Shown here one piece after another: positions 2 to 10,904 of a stretch of 64,000 nucleotides of DNA. A program made the position numbers and the translations under genes. The stretch is from NCBI RefSeq assembly GCF_028752835.1, contig NZ_CP087952.1:725041-789040 (forward strand), in the 5' to 3' direction. The stretch comes from Desulfosarcina sp. BuS5 (GTDB lineage Bacteria; Desulfobacterota; Desulfobacteria; Desulfobacterales; BuS5). Within the stretch, counting starts at the first letter, position 1. Every line of letters starts with the position of its first letter. Under the pieces are notes generated by a model. That model was given only the letters and a program-made list of their open reading frames with translations. It was not told the DNA's origin and did not search any database.

Positions 2-1165
2 TCTGAAAAACCCCAGGCTGAGCTTTGGATGGGGGCTCACCCCAAGGCTCCTTCCCGTGTAATGATCGGGGGGAAATGGATCGGCCTGGATAGATTGATC
101 GAGAGAGATCCCGAAGGAATTCTTGGTAAGGAGATCGCAAAAAAATTTAATAATCGGTTTCCTTATCTTTTTAAAGTGCTTGCGGCGGCAAGACCTTTGT
201 CCATACAGGCCCATCCGGATATTTTACAGGCCAAAAAAGGCTTTTTAAAAGAAAACCTGCGCGGGATTCCACTGGATGCCCCTGACAGAAACTATAAGGA
301 TGAGAATCATAAGCCGGAAATAATATGCGCCCTTACGCCCTTTTGGGCTCTGAATGGATTCAGGAGAATAAAAGATACCATATATTTTATGGAAAGGGTT
401 TGCGGTTCCGGGTTAAGCATGGAAATCGGTTATATCAGGAAAGAACCCGATTCGGCCGGTCTTAAAAAGTTTTTTAACAGTCTTATGAGCATTGAAGAGA
501 GCCGCTGCGCCAAAATAATAGATGAGGCTGTTTCCAATGCGCGTAATCTTGCAGAGAATAATGATGTATATAGATGGATAATCAAACTGCGGGATGAATA
601 TCCGGAAGATATTGGTGTGCTCTCCCCGGTATTTCTCAATCTTGTATGCCTTAAGCCCGGTCAGGCTATGTTTCTTCCGGCAGGTGAACTGCATGCCTAT
701 CTTGAAGGGCTGGGTATAGAACTTATGGCAAATTCGGACAATGTATTAAGGGGCGGTCTTACCTCCAAGCATATCGATCTGCCTGAGCTGTTAAATACTT
801 TGAACTTCCAGGAGAGGGATCCGGATATTCTTGAGCCTGTCTTAAGGTCGAACAATGAGAGTACTTATGTTTCAGGGGCTGAAGAGTTTGTACTTTCCGT
901 GATAACCTTGAAAGAAGGAGAAAAATATAGAAGCGCAGCAGACCGGAGCGCGGAGATTATACTTTGCATAAAAGGTGAAGCGACCTTACTCGAAGCGGGC
1001 ATAGAAAAAGAACTGATACTCTCTCAAGGGAATTCCGTGTTGATCCCTGCTGCTGTTGAAAAATATTCTATTTCGGGTGATGCTGTTTTTTACAAGGCTG
1101 CGTGTGTGGGAGATTTTTTTGCAAAAGTAAAAAAAAATATTGACATAAAAAAAAAATCAATATAA
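2..1165 (+). CDS. manA: Mannose-6-phosphate isomerase, class I (5' end outside window)
   Basis: Interconverts mannose 6-phosphate and fructose 6-phosphate in the cytoplasm, feeding GDP-mannose and polysaccharide synthesis. The reading frame is open to the left edge: codons 2-28 read SEKPQAELW directly before MGAHPKAPS, which is the conserved type I PMI stretch AELWMGAHPKAPS. The ATG at 29 is therefore internal and the first few dozen residues lie outside the window. Visible family marks are QAHPD, the zinc-ligand region NHKPE, and AGELHAYLEGLGIELMANSD followed by VLRGGLT. The end of the gene overlaps a TTGACA box of the next operon's promoter. Function is certain at family level; use in catabolism or glycan synthesis is open. 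Confidence 0.93.
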   Translation, partial: SEKPQAELWMGAHPKAPSRVMIGGKWIGLDRLIERDPEGILGKEIAKKFNNRFPYLFKVLAAARPLSIQAHPDILQAKKGFLKENLRGIPLDAPDRNYKDENHKPEIICALTPFWALNGFRRIKDTIYFMERVCGSGLSMEIGYIRKEPDSAGLKKFFNSLMSIEESRCAKIIDEAVSNARNLAENNDVYRWIIKLRDEYPEDIGVLSPVFLNLVCLKPGQAMFLPAGELHAYLEGLGIELMANSDNVLRGGLTSKHIDLPELLNTLNFQERDPDILEPVLRSNNESTYVSGAEEFVLSVITLKEGEKYRSAADRSAEIILCIKGEATLLEAGIEKELILSQGNSVLIPAAVEKYSISGDAVFYKAACVGDFFAKVKKNIDIKKKSI

Positions 1166-1180
1166 AAAATATTTTATAAT
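1140..1180 (+). promoter_or_regulatory. Putative promoter of the aromatic operon leader
   Basis: A perfect TTGACA lies at 1140-1145 in the last codons of manA. It is followed by a very AT-rich stretch with TATAAA at 1161-1166 (15-bp spacer) and a perfect TATAAT at 1175-1180. Which -10 is used cannot be decided from sequence. Either start would give a transcript carrying the leader peptide at 1201. Confidence 0.5.
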
Positions 1181-1200
1181 TTTTCAGGATGGTTATTTTG

Positions 1201-1269
1201 ATGTGTAAGTTTTTTGCCAGGTTTTTTTATTTTTATTTTTTTATTTCGAGTCTGCCTGGCTTGCTTTGA
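1201..1269 (+). CDS. Phe/Tyr-rich leader peptide of the aromatic operon (22 aa)
   Basis: A short ORF starts at ATG 1201, with an AGGA at 1186-1189 as a possible ribosome site. It begins MCKFFARFFYFYFFI and ends at TGA 1267-1269. Residues 4-14 hold seven Phe and two Tyr, the pattern of attenuator leader peptides such as that of enterobacterial pheA. Two terminator-like hairpins follow directly and the operon beyond contains pheA and most of the shikimate pathway. The peptide most likely senses charged tRNA-Phe/Tyr through ribosome stalling and has no function of its own. Translation is inferred, not shown. Confidence 0.75.
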   Translation: MCKFFARFFYFYFFISSLPGLL

Positions 1270-1331
1270 AAAAGAACCAAAATCTATAGGAAACAAAGCT
1301 GTGGGCAGAATTTTTATGCCGCAGCTTTTTT
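1216..1331 (+). promoter_or_regulatory. Transcription attenuator: pause, antiterminator and terminator stems
   Basis: Alternative pairings can be read by eye. GCCAGG (1216-1221) pairs with CCTGGC (1255-1260), enclosing the Phe/Tyr codons. TCTGCC (1251-1256) pairs with GGCAGA (1304-1309) as an antiterminator. AAGCTG (1296-1301) and GGCA (1304-1307) pair with CAGCTT (1322-1327) and TGCC (1317-1320), followed by six T, as a terminator. The last two pairings share 1304-1307 and so exclude each other. A ribosome stalled on early Phe codons would cover 1216-1221 and leave 1251-1256 free, favouring readthrough under Phe/Tyr starvation. This is the classical attenuation layout, inferred from sequence. 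Confidence 0.68.
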
Positions 1332-1334
1332 AGA

Positions 1335-1366
1335 AAGGCTGTGGAGTTTACTTCACGGCCTTTTTT
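1335..1366 (+). terminator. Second terminator-like hairpin in the aromatic leader
   Basis: AAGGCTGTG (1335-1343) pairs with CACGGCCTT (1354-1362) with one G-U pair around a 10-nt loop, followed by a T run to 1366. It lies just after the attenuator terminator and 90 nt before the first structural gene, so it may be a second attenuation step or a backup stop. Confidence 0.6.
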
Positions 1367-1458: not shown

Positions 1459-2256
1459 ATGACATTTCTAGGAAAACAAATCAGGATGGAGCGGATTTTA
1501 AATCGGAATACCGGCAGAACCGTCATTGTTCCGATGGATCACGGTCTTTCCGTAGGTCCCATACCGGGTGTGATAGATATGAGAAACGCAGTCCGGAAAG
1601 TGGCGGAAGGCGGGGCTAACGCTATTGTTGAACATAAAGGTCTCGTTAAGGCAGGACATCGCAGAGAGGGTAATGATATAGGATTGATAATACATCTTTC
1701 CGGATCAACAAGCCTGTCTCCTTTCCCGAATTCCAAGTCACTGGTATGCTCTGTGGAAGAGGCTGTAAAACTTGGGGCAGATGCAGTCTCCATACATGTG
1801 AACATAGGTGATGATAATGAAAAGGATATGTTGAAGGATTTCGGCCTGGTAAGTTATGAAGCTCGGACATGGGGGATGCCGCTTCTTGCCATGATTTATC
1901 CCAGGGGAGAGAAGATCAAGGATGAATATGATGTGAAATTTGTAAAGCACGCGGCACGTATCGGTGACGAGATGGGCGCTGATATTGTCAAGGTTTCATA
2001 CACCGGAAGTCCTGAATCATTTCGTGAAGTAGTTTCGGGCTGTTCGGTGCCGGTGGTAATAGCCGGGGGCGAAAAGATGGATTCCGACCAGGCAATACTG
2101 GAGATGGTTAAAGGCTCGATAGATGCCGGGGGATCGGGTGTATCAATAGGCCGTAATGTTTTTCAGCATAGGGATTCAACACGAATGGTGCGTGCCATAT
2201 CCTTGATTGTAAATGAGAACGGAACCGTTGATGAAGCTCTTGGAATACTTGGATAA
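1459..2256 (+). CDS. aroA': 2-amino-3,7-dideoxy-D-threo-hept-6-ulosonate (ADTH) synthase
   Basis: Class I aldolase of the FbaB/DhnA family. It performs the first step of the archaeal-type route to dehydroquinate, joining aspartate semialdehyde to a methylglyoxal-derived sugar phosphate to give ADTH. Family marks are [14 protein letters not shown] near the N-terminus, the Schiff-base lysine in [18 protein letters not shown] and [14 protein letters not shown]. The start is placed at ATG 1459 because GGGGGA (1450-1455) precedes it; a GTG at 1444 is in frame. It pairs functionally with the DHQ synthase II gene downstream, which makes ADTH synthesis much more likely than a fructose-bisphosphate aldolase role. 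About 266 aa, normal for the family. Confidence 0.88.
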
Positions 2257-2498: not shown

Positions 2499-2516
2499 AC
2501 TTTAAAGGATAATAAA

Positions 2517-3509
2517 ATGCGTACAATATGGGTAAAAGTTGATCCGTGGGACAAGAAGATAGTTACCACAGCTCTTGAAGGCGGGGCCGATGGTATCATG
2601 GTGCCGAAAGGATTTTCCGAAAAAGTAAAACAACTTGGAAGAATTCAGACCATATCGGAAGACGGTGATCTGAAAACAGGAAAAGATGTAGTCATTTTTA
2701 CAATTAAAAGCGGTGAAGATGAGGATGAGATTGTAAAACTGAGCCAGGACAAAAAGGTTATTTTAAAATGTACCGACTGGACAGTTATTCCACTTGAGAA
2801 TCTGATTGCGAAAGGGGCCGATGTGATTGCAGAGGTTGAGAATCTCAGGGATGCTGAGACGGCTTTCGGAATACTCGAAAAAGGGGTAAAACAGATTCTT
2901 TTTCATACATCGGACGTTTTAGAGTTAAAAAAGGCGCTGTCCGTGCTCTGCTCCGATGAAGAGAAAACCTCCTTGCAAGAGGCCGAGATAAGCGATATTA
3001 TTCCCTTGGGAATGGGTGACCGGGTATGTGTGGATACATGTACATCTATGTCAATAGGTGAAGGAATGCTTGTCGGCAACAGTAGCAGCGCTCTTTTTCT
3101 TGTGCATTCGGAGAGCATATCCAACCCATATGTTGCACCAAGACCTTTCAGGGTAAATGCAGGGCCGGTTCATGCATACACAAGAGTGCCCGGCGGCAAA
3201 ACAAGATATCTTTCAGAGCTGGCCGCCGGTGATCAGATTCTTGTTACTGATTTTCAAGGCCGTACAACAATAGGCATTGTAGGACGCCTGAAAATTGAAA
3301 AACGACCGCTGATGCTTGTCAAGGCGGTTGTGGCCGGCACGGATATTACAACCATTCTTCAGAATGCGGAGACAATTCGGCTTACCGCTCCTGACGGCAA
3401 TCCCGTGTCGGTTGTCAGTCTTAAACCGGGAGACAGAGTTATGGTGGCGGTGGAGGCCGGGGGACGGCATTTCGGCCATAAAATTGATGAAACAATAACG
3501 GAAAAATAG
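2517..3509 (+). CDS. aroB': 3-dehydroquinate synthase II
   Basis: Converts ADTH to 3-dehydroquinate by NAD-dependent oxidative deamination and cyclisation, replacing the DAHP-based AroB reaction. The protein begins MRTIWVKVDPWDKKIVTTAL and carries GGADGIMVPKGF, MGDRVCVDTCTSMSIGEGML and NAGPVHAYTRVPGGKTRYLS, all typical of the MJ1249 family. The start is ATG 2517, behind AAAGGA at 2504-2509; an in-frame GTG at 2487 lies inside the repeat and is unlikely. About 330 aa. It lies 19 nt after the repeat pair and 6 nt before pheA. Confidence 0.92.
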   Translation: MRTIWVKVDPWDKKIVTTALEGGADGIMVPKGFSEKVKQLGRIQTISEDGDLKTGKDVVIFTIKSGEDEDEIVKLSQDKKVILKCTDWTVIPLENLIAKGADVIAEVENLRDAETAFGILEKGVKQILFHTSDVLELKKALSVLCSDEEKTSLQEAEISDIIPLGMGDRVCVDTCTSMSIGEGMLVGNSSSALFLVHSESISNPYVAPRPFRVNAGPVHAYTRVPGGKTRYLSELAAGDQILVTDFQGRTTIGIVGRLKIEKRPLMLVKAVVAGTDITTILQNAETIRLTAPDGNPVSVVSLKPGDRVMVAVEAGGRHFGHKIDETITEK

Positions 3510-3515
3510 TATATT

Positions 3516-4622
3516 ATGGCATTACCGGAAGAGAATACCAGGAACTTCCAGGATTCCCGTATCCTGGAAGCAAGAAAGGCCATAGATGAGATAGACTCGA
3601 AAATACTCGATCTGATCAATCAGAGGCTGCTTCATGCAAGGGAGATCGGCCGCGTTAAACATGATAAAGGCGGCAAGGTATTGGACAACCAACGGGAAAT
3701 AGAAATAATGGACAGGCTGATTTCTTTGAACAAAGGCCCTGTGAGAAATGATACGATTATACAGATTTTTCAGGATATCATTTCGGAATCCCGCGAGATC
3801 CAGAGGCCGCAAAAGGTCTCATATCTCGGCCCTGAAGCTACTTTTACACATATTGCGGCCATGAGTCATTTTGGCCGTCCCCCTTCTTTTCTACCCCAAA
3901 CCAGCATACGGGATGTTTTTACGGAAGTTGAAAAGGGTGCATCTGCATATGGCGTTGTGCCGGCGGAAAATTCCATTGAGGGGGCTGTTAATCATACCCT
4001 GGATCTCTTCTTTGAATCGGATTTAAAAGTATGCGCAGAGATATATCAGCCCATATCCCATGATCTATTATCTTTAACGGGTGATTTGAATAAGATTGAA
4101 AAAATATATTCCCATCCCCAGGCTTTCGGGCAATGCCGCAAATGGCTGAGAAGATATCTGCCGGGTATACCCCTTGAGGAATGCAGCAGCACGGCCCGGG
4201 CCGCCCAGAAAGCTTCGGAAGAGGAGAGAACCGCAGCGATTGCAAGCAGCGCGGCGGCGCAAATATATAAACTGCTTGTGGCTGAGTCCGGGATTCAGGA
4301 TTTTGCGCATAATGTAACGAGATTTCTTGTTATAGGAAACGATGAAACCCATAGAACCGGGAAAGACAAAACATCAATAATGTTTGCTACTATTCATGCC
4401 CCAGGGGCACTGCACATGGCGCTGGAGCCGATTGCAAAAGCAGGTATCAATATGGTTAAACTTGAGTCGCGTCCTACTAAACATGAAAACTGGAACTATT
4501 TTTTCTTTGTCGATATAGAAGGCCATCTGGAGGATCCAAAGGTCAATGATACTTTCAACAGCATGCAGGAATTTTGCCAGTATTTGAAATGTTTAGGCTC
4601 ATATCCAAAGGCCAGGGAGTAA
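3516..4622 (+). CDS. pheA: Bifunctional chorismate mutase / prephenate dehydratase
   Basis: Makes phenylpyruvate from chorismate through prephenate. Domain order: AroQ-type chorismate mutase at about residues 15-95 (ILEARKAIDEIDSKILDLIN), prephenate dehydratase at about 105-280 (YLGPEATFTH, NSIEGAVNHTLDLFFES, and the catalytic-loop motif NVTRFLVIGN), then an ACT domain at about 290-360 (KDKTSIMFATIH, KLESRPTK), the usual site of phenylalanine feedback inhibition. The ESRP motif of the Phe-binding ACT domain is present. At 368 aa it has normal P-protein length. The Phe-rich leader upstream of the operon fits this product. Confidence 0.95.
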   Translation: MALPEENTRNFQDSRILEARKAIDEIDSKILDLINQRLLHAREIGRVKHDKGGKVLDNQREIEIMDRLISLNKGPVRNDTIIQIFQDIISESREIQRPQKVSYLGPEATFTHIAAMSHFGRPPSFLPQTSIRDVFTEVEKGASAYGVVPAENSIEGAVNHTLDLFFESDLKVCAEIYQPISHDLLSLTGDLNKIEKIYSHPQAFGQCRKWLRRYLPGIPLEECSSTARAAQKASEEERTAAIASSAAAQIYKLLVAESGIQDFAHNVTRFLVIGNDETHRTGKDKTSIMFATIHAPGALHMALEPIAKAGINMVKLESRPTKHENWNYFFFVDIEGHLEDPKVNDTFNSMQEFCQYLKCLGSYPKARE

Positions 4623-4627
4623 AACAA

Positions 4628-5449
4628 ATGAAGATTAGTGCAACAACCTCCACCTATTGTGTTATAGGAGATCCCATCGCCCACAGCTTGAGCCCTGTAA
4701 TGCATAATGCCGCATTTCAGGATGCTGGATATAACGGGGCATATCTGGCCTTTAATGTAAAAGATGTTGCTTCCGCAATGGCCGGTTTTAAAGGACTCGG
4801 CATTAAAGGCGCCAGCGTAACGATTCCTCATAAAATTGCTGTAATGGAATTTCTCGACCATATTGATGAGACGGCTGTAAAGATCGGCGCTGTTAATACT
4901 ATAGTCAACAAAGACGGAAAGCTTCTTGGATATAATACGGACTGCCTGGGAGCCACCCGCGCTTTGCTTGAGAAAACGGAAATAAAGGATAAACAGGTGG
5001 TGCTGGCCGGAGCCGGCGGAGCAGCACGCGCCATAGGTTTCGGCATCCTGGCTGAGGGTGGAAGTCTGACCATTATTAATATCCTGGAGGATGAAGGTAA
5101 AAATCTGGCAAATGATCTGGGCGTAAATTATTATCCGCTTGAGCATTTCAAACATCTTGACTGTGATATACTGATTAATGCCACTCCCCTGGGCATGACT
5201 CCGAATATAAATGACATGGTAGTTGAGGGTGAATATCTGGGAAGTGGTATGACCGTAATGGATATTGTTTACAACCCGCTTAAGACACGACTTTTAAAAG
5301 AGGCTGAAGCAATCGGATGCAATACTGTTGACGGGGTATCCATGTTTGTTTATCAGGGCGTTGCGCAGTTTGAGATGTGGACAGGTCTGAAGTCGCCGGT
5401 TGAGTTAATGCGGGGGATAGTTGTCGCAGCCCTGGGGGAGAATGCTTAA
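4628..5449 (+). CDS. aroE: Shikimate dehydrogenase
   Basis: NADPH-dependent reduction of 3-dehydroshikimate to shikimate. N-terminal substrate domain with YCVIGDPIAHSLSPVMHNAAF and SVTIPHKIAVMEFLD; NADP site GAGGAARAIGFGI; C-terminal GVSMFVYQGVAQFEMWTG. The start is ATG 4628, preceded by AGGGAG at 4613-4618. The frame is open further upstream, but into the pheA end. About 273 aa with no fused dehydroquinate dehydratase domain, so the AroD step must be encoded elsewhere in the genome. Confidence 0.94.
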   Translation: MKISATTSTYCVIGDPIAHSLSPVMHNAAFQDAGYNGAYLAFNVKDVASAMAGFKGLGIKGASVTIPHKIAVMEFLDHIDETAVKIGAVNTIVNKDGKLLGYNTDCLGATRALLEKTEIKDKQVVLAGAGGAARAIGFGILAEGGSLTIINILEDEGKNLANDLGVNYYPLEHFKHLDCDILINATPLGMTPNINDMVVEGEYLGSGMTVMDIVYNPLKTRLLKEAEAIGCNTVDGVSMFVYQGVAQFEMWTGLKSPVELMRGIVVAALGENA

Positions 5450-5453
5450 CAGT

Positions 5454-6716
5454 ATGATTGAGATAAGATCCGGGAAGATCCGGGATTGCAGCGTAACAGT
5501 GCCAGGTTCAAAGAGTTACACCCACAGGATGTTGATAGCTGCGGCCCTGTCAGACGGAATCTGTAAAATAACCAACTCCCTGCAAAGTGAAGATACCATT
5601 CTTACCAGCAACGCCCTGCGGCAAATGGGAGTTACGGTATATTCAGAAGGCGGCCAACTGCTGGTGCATGGAACAGGTGGTGCAATTGGTACATGCGGGG
5701 AATCTGTATATCTCGCAAATTCCGGCACATCCATGCGGCTGTTGACTTCGGTTGCCGCTCTGGGAAAGGGAATTTACAGGCTTACAGGCACAGAGCGGAT
5801 GAGTGAACGACCGATTCAGGATCTCCTCGATGCTTTAAACAGCATCGGCGTAAATGCGTACTCTATGTCAAAAAACGGCTGTCCTCCGGTTGAAGTTGAA
5901 GGAGGCATCATAAAAGGAGGGAAACTCTCGATAAACTGCGGCATCAGCAGCCAGTTTCTTTCTTCGCTGCTTTTGATAGCCCCTTATACCCAAAAAGGAC
6001 TCGATATTACTGTCAGCGAAGGCCCGGTATCCAGGCCTTATCTTGATATGACCGTTGATGTAATGTCTTTGCTTGGCATAAATGTTGAGCGGGACGGTTA
6101 TAAAAGGTTTAAGATCGAGGGTGGCCGGAAATACATATCAGGTGATTATATGGTTGAACCTGACTCTTCGCAGGCGAGTTATTTCTGGGCTGCGGCGGCT
6201 GTAACCGGAGCGAGTATAAAAGTGAAAGGGATTAATAAATTTTCCAGACAGGGAGATGTCCGTTTTGCAAGGGTGCTGGAATCGATGGGCTGCAAAGTCG
6301 TTTATGAAGATGACGGCATAACGGTTACAGGCGGAGCTCTTGCTGCTGTGGAAGCGGATATGTCGGATATGCCTGATATTGTACCTACTTTGGCGGTTGT
6401 AGCTGCTTTTGCAAAGGGCGTAACACGCATAACCAATGTGGCACATTTAAAAGCAAAAGAGAGTGACAGACTCGGATCCGTTGCCAACGAATTGAAGAAG
6501 ATGGGTATAGATGCCGTTGCAACTGATTCGGGCTTGATTATTCAAGGCGGAGTTCCGTGCGGTGCTGAAATAGATACATATAATGATCATAGAATCGCAA
6601 TGAGTTTTGCGGTGGCGGGTTTAAATATTCCAGGCGTTTTTATTAAAGACGAAAAGTGTGTTCAAAAATCTTTCCCGGAATTCTGGAATGTTTTCGGAGA
6701 TATGTATAAACGATGA
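5454..6716 (+). CDS. aroA: 3-phosphoshikimate 1-carboxyvinyltransferase (EPSP synthase)
   Basis: Transfers enolpyruvate from PEP to shikimate 3-phosphate. Motifs seen: VPGSKSYTHR (PEP-binding lysine region), LANSGTSMRLL, GTERMSERPI, the catalytic Asp region DMPDIVPTLAVVA, SDRLGSVANEL and TYNDHRIAMSF. The start is placed at ATG 5454 (MIEIRSGK), the usual beginning of the fold. An ATG at 5442 is in frame but sits one base after GGGGAG, too close for a ribosome site. The gene begins 4 nt after the aroE stop and overlaps aroK by 4 nt. Confidence 0.93.
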   Translation: MIEIRSGKIRDCSVTVPGSKSYTHRMLIAAALSDGICKITNSLQSEDTILTSNALRQMGVTVYSEGGQLLVHGTGGAIGTCGESVYLANSGTSMRLLTSVAALGKGIYRLTGTERMSERPIQDLLDALNSIGVNAYSMSKNGCPPVEVEGGIIKGGKLSINCGISSQFLSSLLLIAPYTQKGLDITVSEGPVSRPYLDMTVDVMSLLGINVERDGYKRFKIEGGRKYISGDYMVEPDSSQASYFWAAAAVTGASIKVKGINKFSRQGDVRFARVLESMGCKVVYEDDGITVTGGALAAVEADMSDMPDIVPTLAVVAAFAKGVTRITNVAHLKAKESDRLGSVANELKKMGIDAVATDSGLIIQGGVPCGAEIDTYNDHRIAMSFAVAGLNIPGVFIKDEKCVQKSFPEFWNVFGDMYKR

Positions 6717-7228
6717 CTATTTTTTTGATAGGATATCGGTGCACCGGTAAAACTTCGGTCGGCAAAGCCCTGGCAGACAAGCTGAAATTGCCTTTTGTAG
6801 ATGCGGATCTATTGCTGGTTGAAGAATATGGCGTGACCATAAGTGAAATGGTGGCAAAAGAAGGCTGGCAGCCGTTTCGGGAAAAAGAGGGCCGCATACT
6901 GGCCAGAATCTGCAAGATGGGCGACCAGGTTGTCGCTACAGGAGGAGGAGTCATCCTTGACAAAAAGAATGTCTCCTTAATGAAAGCGAGCGGGACTTGC
7001 GTATGGTTAAAGGCCGGAGCTGAAACTATAAAAAAAAGAATCGTTCAGGATGAAAAAACTGAAGATTCACGTCCTTCGCTCACAAACAGGGGATTGCTGG
7101 AGGAAATAGAAGATACCCTCTCTGAGAGAAATCCTCTTTATGAAGATGCCATGGATTTTTCCGTTGACACGGATGGGAAACAAATCGAAGAGATATGTGA
7201 AATAATTGTTAATGAGCTGAAGCCTTAG
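6713..7228 (+). CDS. aroK: Shikimate kinase
   Basis: Phosphorylates shikimate at the 3-hydroxyl with ATP. 171 aa, typical size. The P-loop is GYRCTGKTSVGKAL at residues 6-19, the shikimate-binding acidic motif DADLLLVEEYG follows, then EGWQPFREKEGRIL and the GGG motif VVATGGGVI. The ATG overlaps the aroA stop (ATGA), indicating translational coupling. Confidence 0.94.
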   Translation: MTIFLIGYRCTGKTSVGKALADKLKLPFVDADLLLVEEYGVTISEMVAKEGWQPFREKEGRILARICKMGDQVVATGGGVILDKKNVSLMKASGTCVWLKAGAETIKKRIVQDEKTEDSRPSLTNRGLLEEIEDTLSERNPLYEDAMDFSVDTDGKQIEEICEIIVNELKP

Positions 7229-7252
7229 CCCCTCAGCCTATAAAGGTTATAA

Positions 7253-8317
7253 ATGCCGGGAAACAGTTTTGGAACAATATTCAGAATAACCACCTGGGGC
7301 GAATCACACGGAAAAGGAGTTGGCGTAGTTGTTGACGGCTGCCCTCCCGGGATACCCTTGAGTGAACATATCATACAAAAGATGCTTGATCGGAGAAGAC
7401 CGGGCGGTTCTTCGACCAGCACATCCCGAAAAGAGCCTGACCAGGCTGTTATAATGTCCGGTCTTTTTGAGGGGTTGACAACCGGCACGCCTTTGTTGAT
7501 CATGGTCAGAAATAAGGATGCCAGGTCAAACGCCTATGCGCCCTATGCACAACTTTTCAGACCGGGACATGGTGATATAACATATCAGGCTAAATACGGG
7601 ATTCGCGACTGGAGGGGCGGGGGAAGATCTTCTGCCCGTGAGACAGTCGCCCGTGTGGCTTCCGGAGCAGTTGCCAGGGCACTGCTGGAAACTGTGAATA
7701 TCAATGTTTCTGCTTATACGGTAAAACTTGGCGGTGTCAAAGCGGAAAAACGGGATTTGGATACAGTAGCCGAGAATATGTTTTTATGCCCGGATCCTGA
7801 AGCTGCCCTGAAAATGGAGAATCGTGTAAAGCAGGTTAAAAAAGACGGTGATTCCCTGGGTGGAATAGTTGAGATTGTAGCCCGGGGAGTCCCGGCGGGC
7901 CTGGGCGAACCTGTTTTTGACAAGCTTGATGCTGAATTGGCCAAGGGGCTGATGAGCATCGGGGCCGTTAAAGGTGTGGAGATAGGTTCGGGCTTTGAAG
8001 CTGCCCGTAAGTTAGGTTCTGAAAATAATGATCCGATCCTTCCGGATGGTTTTGATACTAATAACGCGGGCGGAATACTGGCCGGAATATCAAATGGTGA
8101 TGATATAATAATTCGTATTGCCGTAAAGCCGATTCCGTCCATAAGCCTGGATCAGCGCACAATTGATATTAAAAAAAAAATAAATACTATTTCTATAAAA
8201 GGACGGCACGATATATCCGCTATACCGAGAATAAACGTGGTATGCGAGTCTATGGTTTACCTGGTTCTGGCAGATCATTATCTGCGGCAAAAGGCGATTA
8301 TGAATAATGGAGGGTGA
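7253..8317 (+). CDS. aroC: Chorismate synthase
   Basis: Final common step, EPSP to chorismate, needing reduced FMN. 354 aa. Signatures are WGESHGKGVGVVVDGCPPG near the N-terminus, RPGHGDITYQAKYGIRDWRG and GGGRSSARETVARVASGA in the middle, and AVKPIPSI with RHDISAIPR at the C-terminal side. It lies 24 nt after aroK and overlaps the next gene by 11 nt. Confidence 0.96.
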   Translation: MPGNSFGTIFRITTWGESHGKGVGVVVDGCPPGIPLSEHIIQKMLDRRRPGGSSTSTSRKEPDQAVIMSGLFEGLTTGTPLLIMVRNKDARSNAYAPYAQLFRPGHGDITYQAKYGIRDWRGGGRSSARETVARVASGAVARALLETVNINVSAYTVKLGGVKAEKRDLDTVAENMFLCPDPEAALKMENRVKQVKKDGDSLGGIVEIVARGVPAGLGEPVFDKLDAELAKGLMSIGAVKGVEIGSGFEAARKLGSENNDPILPDGFDTNNAGGILAGISNGDDIIIRIAVKPIPSISLDQRTIDIKKKINTISIKGRHDISAIPRINVVCESMVYLVLADHYLRQKAIMNNGG

Positions 8318-9512
8318 CTTTAGTTGTGATCATCAAAATCCTGAAGTTCACGTTTGCGGGGGAAACGGGCCTTACGAAAATACACTGGCGGTCTTATCCC
8401 GTTTTGATCTTGCGCCTCTTAAAGGAAAACAGGTTCTCCTTAAACCGAATATAGGGCGGGTCGCTGCAAGCGGCGCGGGAATAACAACGGAGGCCTTGGT
8501 AGTTGCAGGGGCAGCCGATGCATTTACAGAAGCCGGTGCAACAGTGGCTATAGGTGAAAGCCCGATAACAGGCGTTGCGATAAAAGAAGCTTTTGACGTA
8601 TCCGGGATTGAAAGGATTGCGCAGGAACGTAGCATCCGGCTGATAGATCTTGACGCACGCCCTTTTGTTAAAGTGGCGGTTCATGGAGGCCGGGTCATAG
8701 ATTCCCTGAAAGTATGTCCCGAAGTTCTGGAATACGATATTGTCGTTTCCATGCCGGTCATGAAGATGCACATGCACACCGGAGTTACCCTGGCAGTAAA
8801 GAATATGAAAGGGTGTCTCTGGAGACGGAGCAAGGTAAAATTTCATATGCTGCCGCAGGTAAAAGGGAGTGAAGAAAAATCTATCAATGTTGCCATCTCC
8901 GATATGTCCGGAGTACTACGCCCCGATTTTTCAATAATCGACGGCACCACCGGGATGGAGGGAATGGGGCCCGGCTCCGGCTCCCCTAAACCCCTGGGGG
9001 TTGTTGTGGCCGGATTTGATCCTTTTGCGGCCGACGCGGTGTCATGCAGGATAATGGGAACCAGGGCGGAGAATGTGCCGCATCTGCGAATCGGAGCGGA
9101 ACGTGGTTATGGTATCATAGATATTGAAAAAATAGCAGTTTATCCGCAGGACTGGCGCAAATATATATCCCCGTTTATACCTCCCCCCGAGAAGCTTGAA
9201 TTTGAATTCCCAAACATCACTGTTCTGGATGAAAATTCGTGCAGCGCCTGCCAGTCCACACTCCTGCTTTTTCTGAAGCAGCAGAAAGAAAAAATTTTCG
9301 ATTATTTTCCTGATATTGAGGAGCTGACCATAGCAATAGGGAAGGGGAATAAAGAGGTTCCGGCAGGAACCCTCTGTATCGGAAACTGTACCGCTGCCCA
9401 TAAAGAGAAGGGCATATTTGTCCAGGGCTGTCCTCCGGTGGGGAGTGAGATTATGAATGTACTTAAATTTGGGATCACGGATCATCCGTCGCCGTTATGC
9501 GCAAAAAAATGA
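8307..9512 (+). CDS. DUF362 domain protein
   Basis: 401 aa. The first 300 residues show the DUF362 pattern: LLKPNIGR, ITTEALVVAGAADAFTEAGA, GESPITG, VVSMPVMKMHMHTGVTLAVKNMKG and DGTTGMEGMGPGSGSPKPLG. The C-terminal part has scattered cysteines (CSACQS, CIGNCTA, GCP) but not a plain 2x[4Fe-4S] ferredoxin pattern. ATG 8307 lies within the aroC end, so it is probably the last gene of the aromatic operon. Its reaction is unknown; the sequence gives no link to chorismate use beyond position. Confidence 0.8.
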   Translation: MEGDFSCDHQNPEVHVCGGNGPYENTLAVLSRFDLAPLKGKQVLLKPNIGRVAASGAGITTEALVVAGAADAFTEAGATVAIGESPITGVAIKEAFDVSGIERIAQERSIRLIDLDARPFVKVAVHGGRVIDSLKVCPEVLEYDIVVSMPVMKMHMHTGVTLAVKNMKGCLWRRSKVKFHMLPQVKGSEEKSINVAISDMSGVLRPDFSIIDGTTGMEGMGPGSGSPKPLGVVVAGFDPFAADAVSCRIMGTRAENVPHLRIGAERGYGIIDIEKIAVYPQDWRKYISPFIPPPEKLEFEFPNITVLDENSCSACQSTLLLFLKQQKEKIFDYFPDIEELTIAIGKGNKEVPAGTLCIGNCTAAHKEKGIFVQGCPPVGSEIMNVLKFGITDHPSPLCAKK

Positions 9513-9596: not shown

Positions 9597-10904
9597 CAGT
9601 AGTGTCCGGTTAAGTTTTTGCATATAGCATTTGCTCTTTGATAATCAGATTATTAGACCATACGTTTTTTTCGTCAGTACGTAATTCGTTCTGGATGGTA
9701 TTTCTAAGCTGACGAATCCTCTTTATTGATACAGGTTCATTAAACTGTTCATGGCAGTATATGGCCATAAGCAGGTAGGTTATTAACCCCGCAAGGATTT
9801 GAACCATCAGGCCATATCTACTGTGAGCAATCAAGTGGTACACTTTTAAATGTTTCTTCCACCATTTGAAAAAAGTTTCGATATCCCATCTAAGCTTATA
9901 AACGGTTGCAACCTGCTCGGCTGTAAGATCATAACGATCAGTTGCCACAAAATATTTGACACCGGCAATTTTATAACCAACCAGTCGAACCGGCTTTCTG
10001 GTCTGGTTTACCCCAGGAGTGCCAAGAAGAACCACAGCATCATAAAAAATATAGCTGTCGGGATCAACAGGCTGCTCTTTGATAATAGTTCTTGTTGTTT
10101 TCGCTTTGATGCGGCAAACAAAATGTTTTTTTTCATCCTGAAGAAGATCAAAATCCTTATGTGATTGATACCCCCGATCCATGATTCCTGTTTGGCCTTT
10201 TGTAAGGATAGACCTGACAAAGGGGCGTTCAGCGCCATTTCCATTTGTCAGATGAATTTTTATAGGAATCTTGCGATTGACATCAAAGCCGAAATGGCCT
10301 TTTGCTTTTTTAGCGCCTTTTCTGTAATCAGCCCAGTACATGGACAGAACTGCATCAATTAAAGATCCATCAATGGAAACGAGTTCACCGAGATCTGAAT
10401 AATTTGATGGTAAAGCATTTTGTGCCTGGCTGCAAAGAGCTTGAAAAACATATTCAAGCTGTTCAAGCCCTCGAGAATTGATAATTTCGGAAAAACTGCT
10501 ACGACTGATCCCTCCATCTGGAGCGACACATTCTTTGGCAAAATCGTCTTCTTTAAGGTGTTGAATAAGATCACGAGCTGATTCATGTTCTTGTAGATGG
10601 AAAAATATCAGTGCGTGAAGCTGATCTTCAAAAGTCATTTTCAATGGCCTGTGACCTCGGGATTTAAGCTGTGGCGTGTCAGGAAAAATCTTTTGCAAAG
10701 GTTTGAGAAATCGAGCATGAGATTGGGGATTAAAATTCTTTTTTGGGATATTGAATATGTCCATTTTTGTCTTAACTCCTTGTTATAATTATATTTTATA
10801 ACAAAACGATAAAAAATTTTTATTTGGTTTGTCAAGTAAAAAATGAACATTTTTCTAATTTTTTTATCCCATATAACATGCAAAAACCTAACCGGACACT
10901 ACTG
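9597..10904 (-). mobile_element. IS4-family insertion sequence, complete
   Basis: 1308 bp with 24-bp terminal inverted repeats (outer bases CAGTAGTGTCCGGTTA) differing at one position, flanked by a 9-bp direct repeat ATTGGAAGA at 9588-9596 and 10905-10913. It holds a single transposase gene on the minus strand. Both ends and the ORF are intact, so the element looks potentially active and recent. Confidence 0.93.
9610..10764 (-). CDS. IS4-family DDE transposase
   Basis: 384 aa. An N-terminal DUF4372-type helical region (residues 1-80) precedes the RNase H-fold DDE domain: first Asp in VSIDGSLIDAV, second in GIMDRGYQSHKDFDLL, and Glu in the IS4 signature Y(2)R(3)E(6)K, seen as YKLRWDIETFFKWWK. 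No frameshift or internal stop. It catalyses transposition of the surrounding 1308-bp element. Confidence 0.93.
   Translation of the reverse strand: MDIFNIPKKNFNPQSHARFLKPLQKIFPDTPQLKSRGHRPLKMTFEDQLHALIFFHLQEHESARDLIQHLKEDDFAKECVAPDGGISRSSFSEIINSRGLEQLEYVFQALCSQAQNALPSNYSDLGELVSIDGSLIDAVLSMYWADYRKGAKKAKGHFGFDVNRKIPIKIHLTNGNGAERPFVRSILTKGQTGIMDRGYQSHKDFDLLQDEKKHFVCRIKAKTTRTIIKEQPVDPDSYIFYDAVVLLGTPGVNQTRKPVRLVGYKIAGVKYFVATDRYDLTAEQVATVYKLRWDIETFFKWWKKHLKVYHLIAHSRYGLMVQILAGLITYLLMAIYCHEQFNEPVSIKRIRQLRNTIQNELRTDEKNVWSNNLIIKEQMLYAKT

Follow-up and report, generated by a model that had tools for sequence, protein, structure and literature searches.

The shikimate operon near the start of the window (the whole stretch of DNA analysed, 64,000 nucleotides of the Desulfosarcina sp. 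BuS5 genome, contig NZ_CP087952.1, positions 725,041 to 789,040 of the forward strand) is preceded by a leader that is, with a probability of roughly 0.87, a ribosome-mediated attenuator of transcription in which six RNA segments pair in mutually exclusive ways and a relay pairing of segments 4 and 5 links two terminators. What is seen, here and in relatives, is a short ORF, five alternative helices together with their covariation, both U-tailed hairpins, conservation across the phylum and a match between the codons of the ORF and the gene behind it.

Leader peptide and operon

The features of the translated part of the leader and of the operon are as follows.

1140 to 1166, plus strand: tentative promoter, TTGACA (1140-1145) and candidate -10 TATAAA (1161-1166), spacer 15, from sequence only
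1186 to 1189, plus strand: Shine-Dalgarno-like AGGA, 11 nt 5' of the leader ATG
1201 to 1269, plus strand: leader peptide ORF MCKFFARFFYFYFFISSLPGLL, ATG at 1201, TGA at 1267-1269, 22 codons; homologous leaders at ADTH loci
1210 to 1242, plus strand: sensor, nine Phe/Tyr codons (FFARFFYFYFF), from the leader sequence and ORF controls
1459 to 2256, plus strand: ADTH synthase (2-amino-3,7-dideoxy-D-threo-hept-6-ulosonate synthase), first operon gene; TIGR01949, 369 bits, cut-off 299
2514 to 8317, plus strand: rest of the operon, namely 3-dehydroquinate synthase II, chorismate mutase/prephenate dehydratase (pheA), aroE, aroA, shikimate kinase and aroC (NCBIfam)

The 22-codon ORF of the original prediction, with nine Phe/Tyr codons in residues 4-14 of the peptide, is present at 1201-1269. 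An alternative in-frame ATG is possible at 1189, and the start at 1201 is favoured because the AGGA at 1186-1189 suits it. The TTGACA/TATAAA pair further upstream is tentatively taken as the promoter; the TGACA of its -35 is also present in a close relative (L004), and a promoter scan of the window did not report the pair.

That an ADTH-type shikimate operon with pheA stands behind the leader, as had been predicted, is borne out by NCBIfam matches above cut-off for ADH_synth, DHQ synthase II, prephenate dehydratase, aroE, aroA and aroC, with shikimate kinase, at 157.6 bits, just under its cut-off of 161. The genome had also been guessed to be Desulfobacterota-like, and its close named relatives are indeed Desulfobacterota. 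One copy of the leader is present in the genome (4.18 Mb), and no Trp leader was seen there before trpE, where relatives have one. The leader of the window carries Tyr codons although prephenate dehydrogenase (PF02153), present in 14 of 14 control genomes, was not found in this 97% complete genome. At the other end of the operon, aroC is followed, with an overlap of a few bases, by an ORF at 8307-9512 with a weak match to the Npun_F2552 family (113 bits against a cut-off of 500), and next by an ORF on the minus strand at 9610-10764 that is transposase-like by eye.

A chain of six RNA segments

The RNA elements between the sensor codons and the first gene overlap one another.

1216 to 1222, plus strand: segment 1, GCCAGGT, pairing with segment 2 at 1254-1260
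1251 to 1260, plus strand: segment 2, of which GCCTGGC at 1254-1260 pairs with segment 1 and 1251-1258 with segment 3 (antiterminator)
1263 to 1268, plus strand: 5' strand of helix X, overlapping the stop codon, partner 1294-1299; lengthens the antiterminator
1295 to 1331, plus strand: terminator 1, segments 3:4, stem 1295-1307/1317-1328, six T at 1326-1331
1319 to 1344, plus strand: relay helix 4:5, 1319-1329/1334-1344, 11 bp, loop 1330-1333; excludes both terminators
1332 to 1366, plus strand: terminator 2, segments 5:6, stem 1332-1346/1351-1365, six T at 1361-1366

Segment 4 can pair with segment 5 as well as with segment 3, and the leader is therefore a single chain with two states, OFF (1:2, 3:4 and 5:6, giving two terminators) and ON (2:3 and 4:5). 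Terminator 2 is thus not independent, being tied to terminator 1 via 4:5. Much of this had been foreseen. Both terminators, the first excluded by an antiterminator and the second ahead of the operon, lie where they were expected, and the antiterminator, given originally as 1251-1256/1304-1309, extends to 1251-1258/1302-1309, so that part of segment 3 (1302-1309) pairs alternatively with segment 2, with helix X (1263-1268/1294-1299) nested within. The proposed stem around the aromatic codons holds for the second block of these, which lies inside 1:2, but not for Phe4-Phe5, which stand just before it. The 4:5 pairing and helix X are additional to the pairings predicted.

The region 1181-1372 folds with a z-score of -3.8, none of 200 shuffles being equally stable. 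In the window 2:3 with helix X has an energy of -16.1 kcal/mol against -15.3 for terminator 1, the overlap of 2:3 with the terminator-1 stem being limited to the upper part of the latter, and 4:5 has -15.2 against -20.7 kcal/mol for 5:6. Since over the whole states the OFF form (-36.0 kcal/mol) is more stable at equilibrium than the ON form (-31.3 kcal/mol), ON depends on kinetics and the order of folding, as known attenuators do. 2:3 with X can form before terminator 1, and 4:5 before 5:6; when leaders were folded in order of synthesis with a ribosome parked on them, 2:3 and then 4:5 formed in 79 of 83, the window's included.

Proposed mechanism

We infer from these features that ribosomes stall, that the segments fold in a given order, that transcription terminates and that the leader responds to amino acids. 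When Phe- or Tyr-tRNA is scarce, a ribosome would stall in the FFARFFYFYFF run and cover segment 1, leaving segment 2 to capture segment 3 in 2:3 plus helix X. With segment 3 taken, terminator 1 would not form and the free segment 4 would capture segment 5; with 4:5 formed, terminator 2 would not form either, and RNA polymerase would enter the shikimate operon, so that one stalled ribosome could disarm both terminators. When Phe and Tyr are plentiful, the ribosome would reach the stop codon at 1267-1269 and cover segment 2, whereupon 3:4 and then 5:6 would form and transcription would end near 1331 or 1366. If the leader is not translated, the pairings expected are 1:2, 3:4 and 5:6, which again is the OFF state. 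A strong terminator directly ahead of the genes would keep them permanently shut off if nothing released it, and the 4:5 pairing is the sole candidate found for the release of terminator 2.

Conservation of the leader ORF

A set of 114 non-redundant ADTH genes was assembled, an upstream leader being accepted where a short ORF has at least six F/Y/W in twelve residues. At this threshold a leader ORF is present at 101 of the 114 loci and absent from 13, against 4.0% for dinucleotide shuffles and 3.4% for other stretches of the same loci. A peculiarity of this window alone was rejected on the count of 101. With at least eight F/Y/W in twelve residues the proportion upstream of ADTH synthase genes is 67%, against 0 of 570 dinucleotide shuffles and 0.2% of 4254 other 450-nt stretches. 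Trp is also present in 63 of 90 strong leaders, the window's leader having none. Gaps in the aligned leader ORF are multiples of three in 122 of 128 cases, with mixed lengths downstream of the ORF, and a Shine-Dalgarno match of at least 4 nt precedes 66 of 90 relatives' leaders against 55 of 360 control windows (15%). The C-terminal STGLPG pattern of the peptide is a consequence of segment 2.

These loci bear on another explanation, that the hairpins are tandem terminators of the upstream gene with a Phe-rich ORF there by chance. In the window that gene, a class I mannose-6-phosphate isomerase at 29-1165, reads in the same direction and has its end just upstream of the leader, as this explanation would have it. 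However, the nearest upstream ORF is divergent at 31 of 83 loci, on which ground a plain terminator of the upstream gene was rejected, and the ORF, its Shine-Dalgarno sequence and the antiterminator pairings are conserved though a plain terminator needs none of them; the explanation is very improbable.

Covariation and the relay pairing

In an alignment of 38 leaders, 89% of the cells of the OFF helices and 84.6% of those of the ON helices are paired, and both partners have changed in 23 OFF pairs and 14 ON pairs. From the OFF structure a covariance model (R1) was made, and with it 100 matches were aligned, DAHP-type operons included; among the weakest of them, two are spurious or antisense. 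Over the 99 distinct rows so obtained the OFF helices are paired in 88.5% of cells, with 33 double-sided changes (slid controls 36-55%), and the ON helices, to which this alignment was not fitted, in 84.5%, with 20 double-sided changes (slid controls 34-51%). All five helices (1:2, 2:3, 3:4, 4:5 and 5:6) covary, and helix X is the weakest element, paired in 46-74% of cells. In one relative (L095) GGCCATG stands in place of the common GCCGTGG core, all four arms having changed together. The check proposed with the original prediction was whether relatives keep the Phe/Tyr codons and show compensatory changes in both stems, and the prediction has come through it.

A further comparison was between the pairing energy of segments from the same genome and that of segments exchanged between genomes, in 58 dereplicated leaders, to which the p values refer, and in a set of 83. 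With shared ancestry not modelled, the five neighbour pairings are favoured with p between 2e-11 and 7e-6 (1:2, 3e-10; 2:3, 4e-9; 3:4, 2e-11; 4:5, 7e-6; 5:6, 2e-11), and among non-neighbours the preference is absent or weak (2:4, p=0.03; 3:6, p=0.05). Segments 3 and 5 are alike, and duplicated hairpins could therefore account for part of the 4:5 complementarity, the 3:6 control being weakly positive. Likeness of the two hairpins is nevertheless not the whole of it, since 4:5 does better than the matched 3:6 control (p=4e-4).

It is here that a simpler arrangement has to be weighed, in which 1:2, 2:3 and 3:4 make up a classical attenuator of three hairpins and the second terminator is independent of it, serving only to reduce read-through. 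Terminator 1 by itself completes a pheL-like attenuator, and in most relatives a U-run is present after hairpin 3:4. Yet an ever-active 5:6 as strong as that of the window would stop even antiterminated transcripts before they reached the operon, and 4:5 covaries and is matched within genomes better than the 3:6 control. In addition, five relatives (L027, L028, L030, L082 and L103) have no U-run after 3:4 and have kept both 2:3 and 4:5; because 5:6 is their only terminator, control in them must use 4:5. These natural variants point to the relay, and the three-hairpin arrangement is unlikely. As an independent element the second terminator was rejected in favour of the relay on the 4:5 covariation and the energies of own and swapped segments. 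Some relatives have a single hairpin only.

Distribution and the identity of the presumed sensor codons

At E <= 1e-3, R1 matches in 228 of 241 sampled genomes of the class and in 148 of 297 sampled genomes of the phylum. Inspection covered 40 strong or secondary matches and a further 20 of intermediate strength (about E 1e-7 to 1e-10); in all 20 of the latter the leader ORF contains a run of aromatic codons (once branched-chain codons), and a few have one hairpin only. ADTH operons are not alone in having this leader, the genes behind it including ADTH synthase, DAHP synthase of the aroFGH and Bsub types, and pheA-first operons. Its persistence ahead of different shikimate entry enzymes (ADTH synthase or either of two DAHP-synthase types) ties it to the pathway and not to the first gene. 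For one ADTH gene without a leader directly before it, R1 matches with 42 bits some 2.2 kb upstream (L098:4251-4441).

The codons change with the gene. Leaders of DAHP synthases and pheA have F/Y/W codons, and those before trpE have WWWW, CWWCW or GWWRWQ. Before tyrS, for tyrosyl-tRNA synthetase (L216:160-460), the leader has tandem hairpins, and the aromatic residues of its run are Tyr alone (AYYYYYRYY). Trp-rich leaders (WRWWW, WWRWWW and WCWWWAW in L245, L249 and L252) stand before DAHP-synthase-like genes that are probably Trp-specific isozymes. A Phe-rich leader of the same family (MSGIFFFFFYFTRSAREMAT; FFFFFYF) precedes paaK, for phenylacetate-CoA ligase (L229:180-420), together with an ACT-domain-like protein and an ABC-transporter-like set, a gene set that suggests phenylalanine synthesis from phenylacetate. 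Tandem hairpins and a GVLVVVV leader stand before an ilvB-like (acetolactate-synthase-like) gene (L261:167-400), so branched-chain operons too may share the tandem design. It is this match of the codons to the product of the downstream gene that we regard as the best evidence for the peptide as the sensor.

A leader that binds a metabolite or tRNA (a riboswitch or T-box) or a protein, and is not coupled to translation, would also be a structured leader ahead of amino-acid genes. The Rfam scan of the window at gathering score gave two tRNAs only and no T-box or riboswitch, and the conserved ORF and the tracking of the downstream gene by codon identity likewise count against such a leader, which is most implausible.

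The translation-coupled leader is likely to be a modular attenuator chassis throughout the Desulfobacterota, in which the relay would open two serial terminators and the codon cassette would be exchanged according to the gene (F/Y/W for shikimate operons, Y for tyrS, W for trp and some DAHP-synthase genes, F for paaK, V for ilvB), the leader having outlived non-orthologous replacement of the entry enzyme. Classical translation-coupled attenuation would then be a common control of aromatic biosynthesis in Desulfobacterota, acting here on the archaeal-type ADTH pathway. With sensor codons varying on a constant RNA chassis, the hundred or so aligned leaders are a useful natural set for studying how a run of codons determines specificity. 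They also allow prediction of gene function, in that paaK and an aminotransferase behind Phe/Tyr leaders are likely to act in aromatic amino-acid synthesis.

Comparison with known attenuators

Like other leader-peptide attenuators, that of the window has a short ORF rich in codons for the amino acid of its operon, and a mutually exclusive antiterminator and U-tailed terminator before the first gene. The enterobacterial his attenuator (hisL) has a six-segment model, with segments A-F. In the hisL sequence the central hairpin contains GAUCUUCC, which is able to pair with GGAAGAUC in the 5' arm of the terminator, as in 4:5, so that the logic of the relay is shared, and the pairings and covariation of the window's leader family, as read from aligned sequences, give the same type of chain (1:2/3:4/5:6 against 2:3/4:5). 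The differences are that hisL has His codons, the his operon and a single terminator, its central hairpin having no U-run, whereas the window's leader has Phe/Tyr codons, the shikimate operon and two U-tailed hairpins. R1 finds neither E. coli pheL nor hisL at E <= 1, and the score of the window with Rfam RF01859 (Phe_leader) is 18.4 bits, below the gathering score of 55.

With the E. coli attenuators of pheA (pheL) and pheST the leader shares a Phe-rich peptide, the logic of 1:2, 2:3 and 3:4, and a target in the Phe pathway that includes pheA (PMC11802643). However, pheL has one terminator where the window's leader has two tied by 4:5, and the family to which the latter belongs has Phe and Tyr (often Trp) codons and a whole shikimate operon behind them. 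The mechanism would, by analogy, be like that of the enterobacterial phe and his attenuators, with an extra terminator relative to Phe_leader. The serial arrangement raises the question of whether two linked terminators leak less, or respond more steeply, than one alone as in pheL or hisL.

For DAHP synthases, aromatic leaders have already been reported in other groups. In Corynebacterium glutamicum the aroR leader before aroF encodes a peptide with Phe-Tyr-Phe, and ribosome stalling there is reported to raise transcription (Neshat et al. 2014, as described in PMC11802643; PMC4046766). It shares an aromatic leader peptide and control of a shikimate entry-enzyme operon with the window's leader, and differs in belonging to Actinobacteria, in having three aromatic residues and in that no tandem relay is described in the text consulted (PMC11802643, PMC4046766). 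Before aroF (DAHP synthase) in Acholeplasma the uORFC-13-1 motif, a uORF identified computationally, has one or more Phe codons beside a terminator; its 24 representatives are from Acholeplasma and environmental sequences only, and one terminator is described (PMC8632094). A Phe-codon uORF next to a terminator before an entry-enzyme gene is common to it and the window's leader. A literature search of partial coverage found no published description of aromatic leaders in Desulfobacterota.

Sequence between the leader and the first gene

Between terminator 2 and the ADTH gene, at 1368-1389, lies the 22-nt tttataaccttccagagtatag, which has one further exact copy in the genome (L002:1501-1522), upstream of a gene for a SurA-like peptidyl-prolyl isomerase, and one more with 2 mismatches, the reversed control pattern giving 0. 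Most relatives have a shorter spacer at this place, and for that reason the element is perhaps a shared operator or the remnant of an interspersed element.
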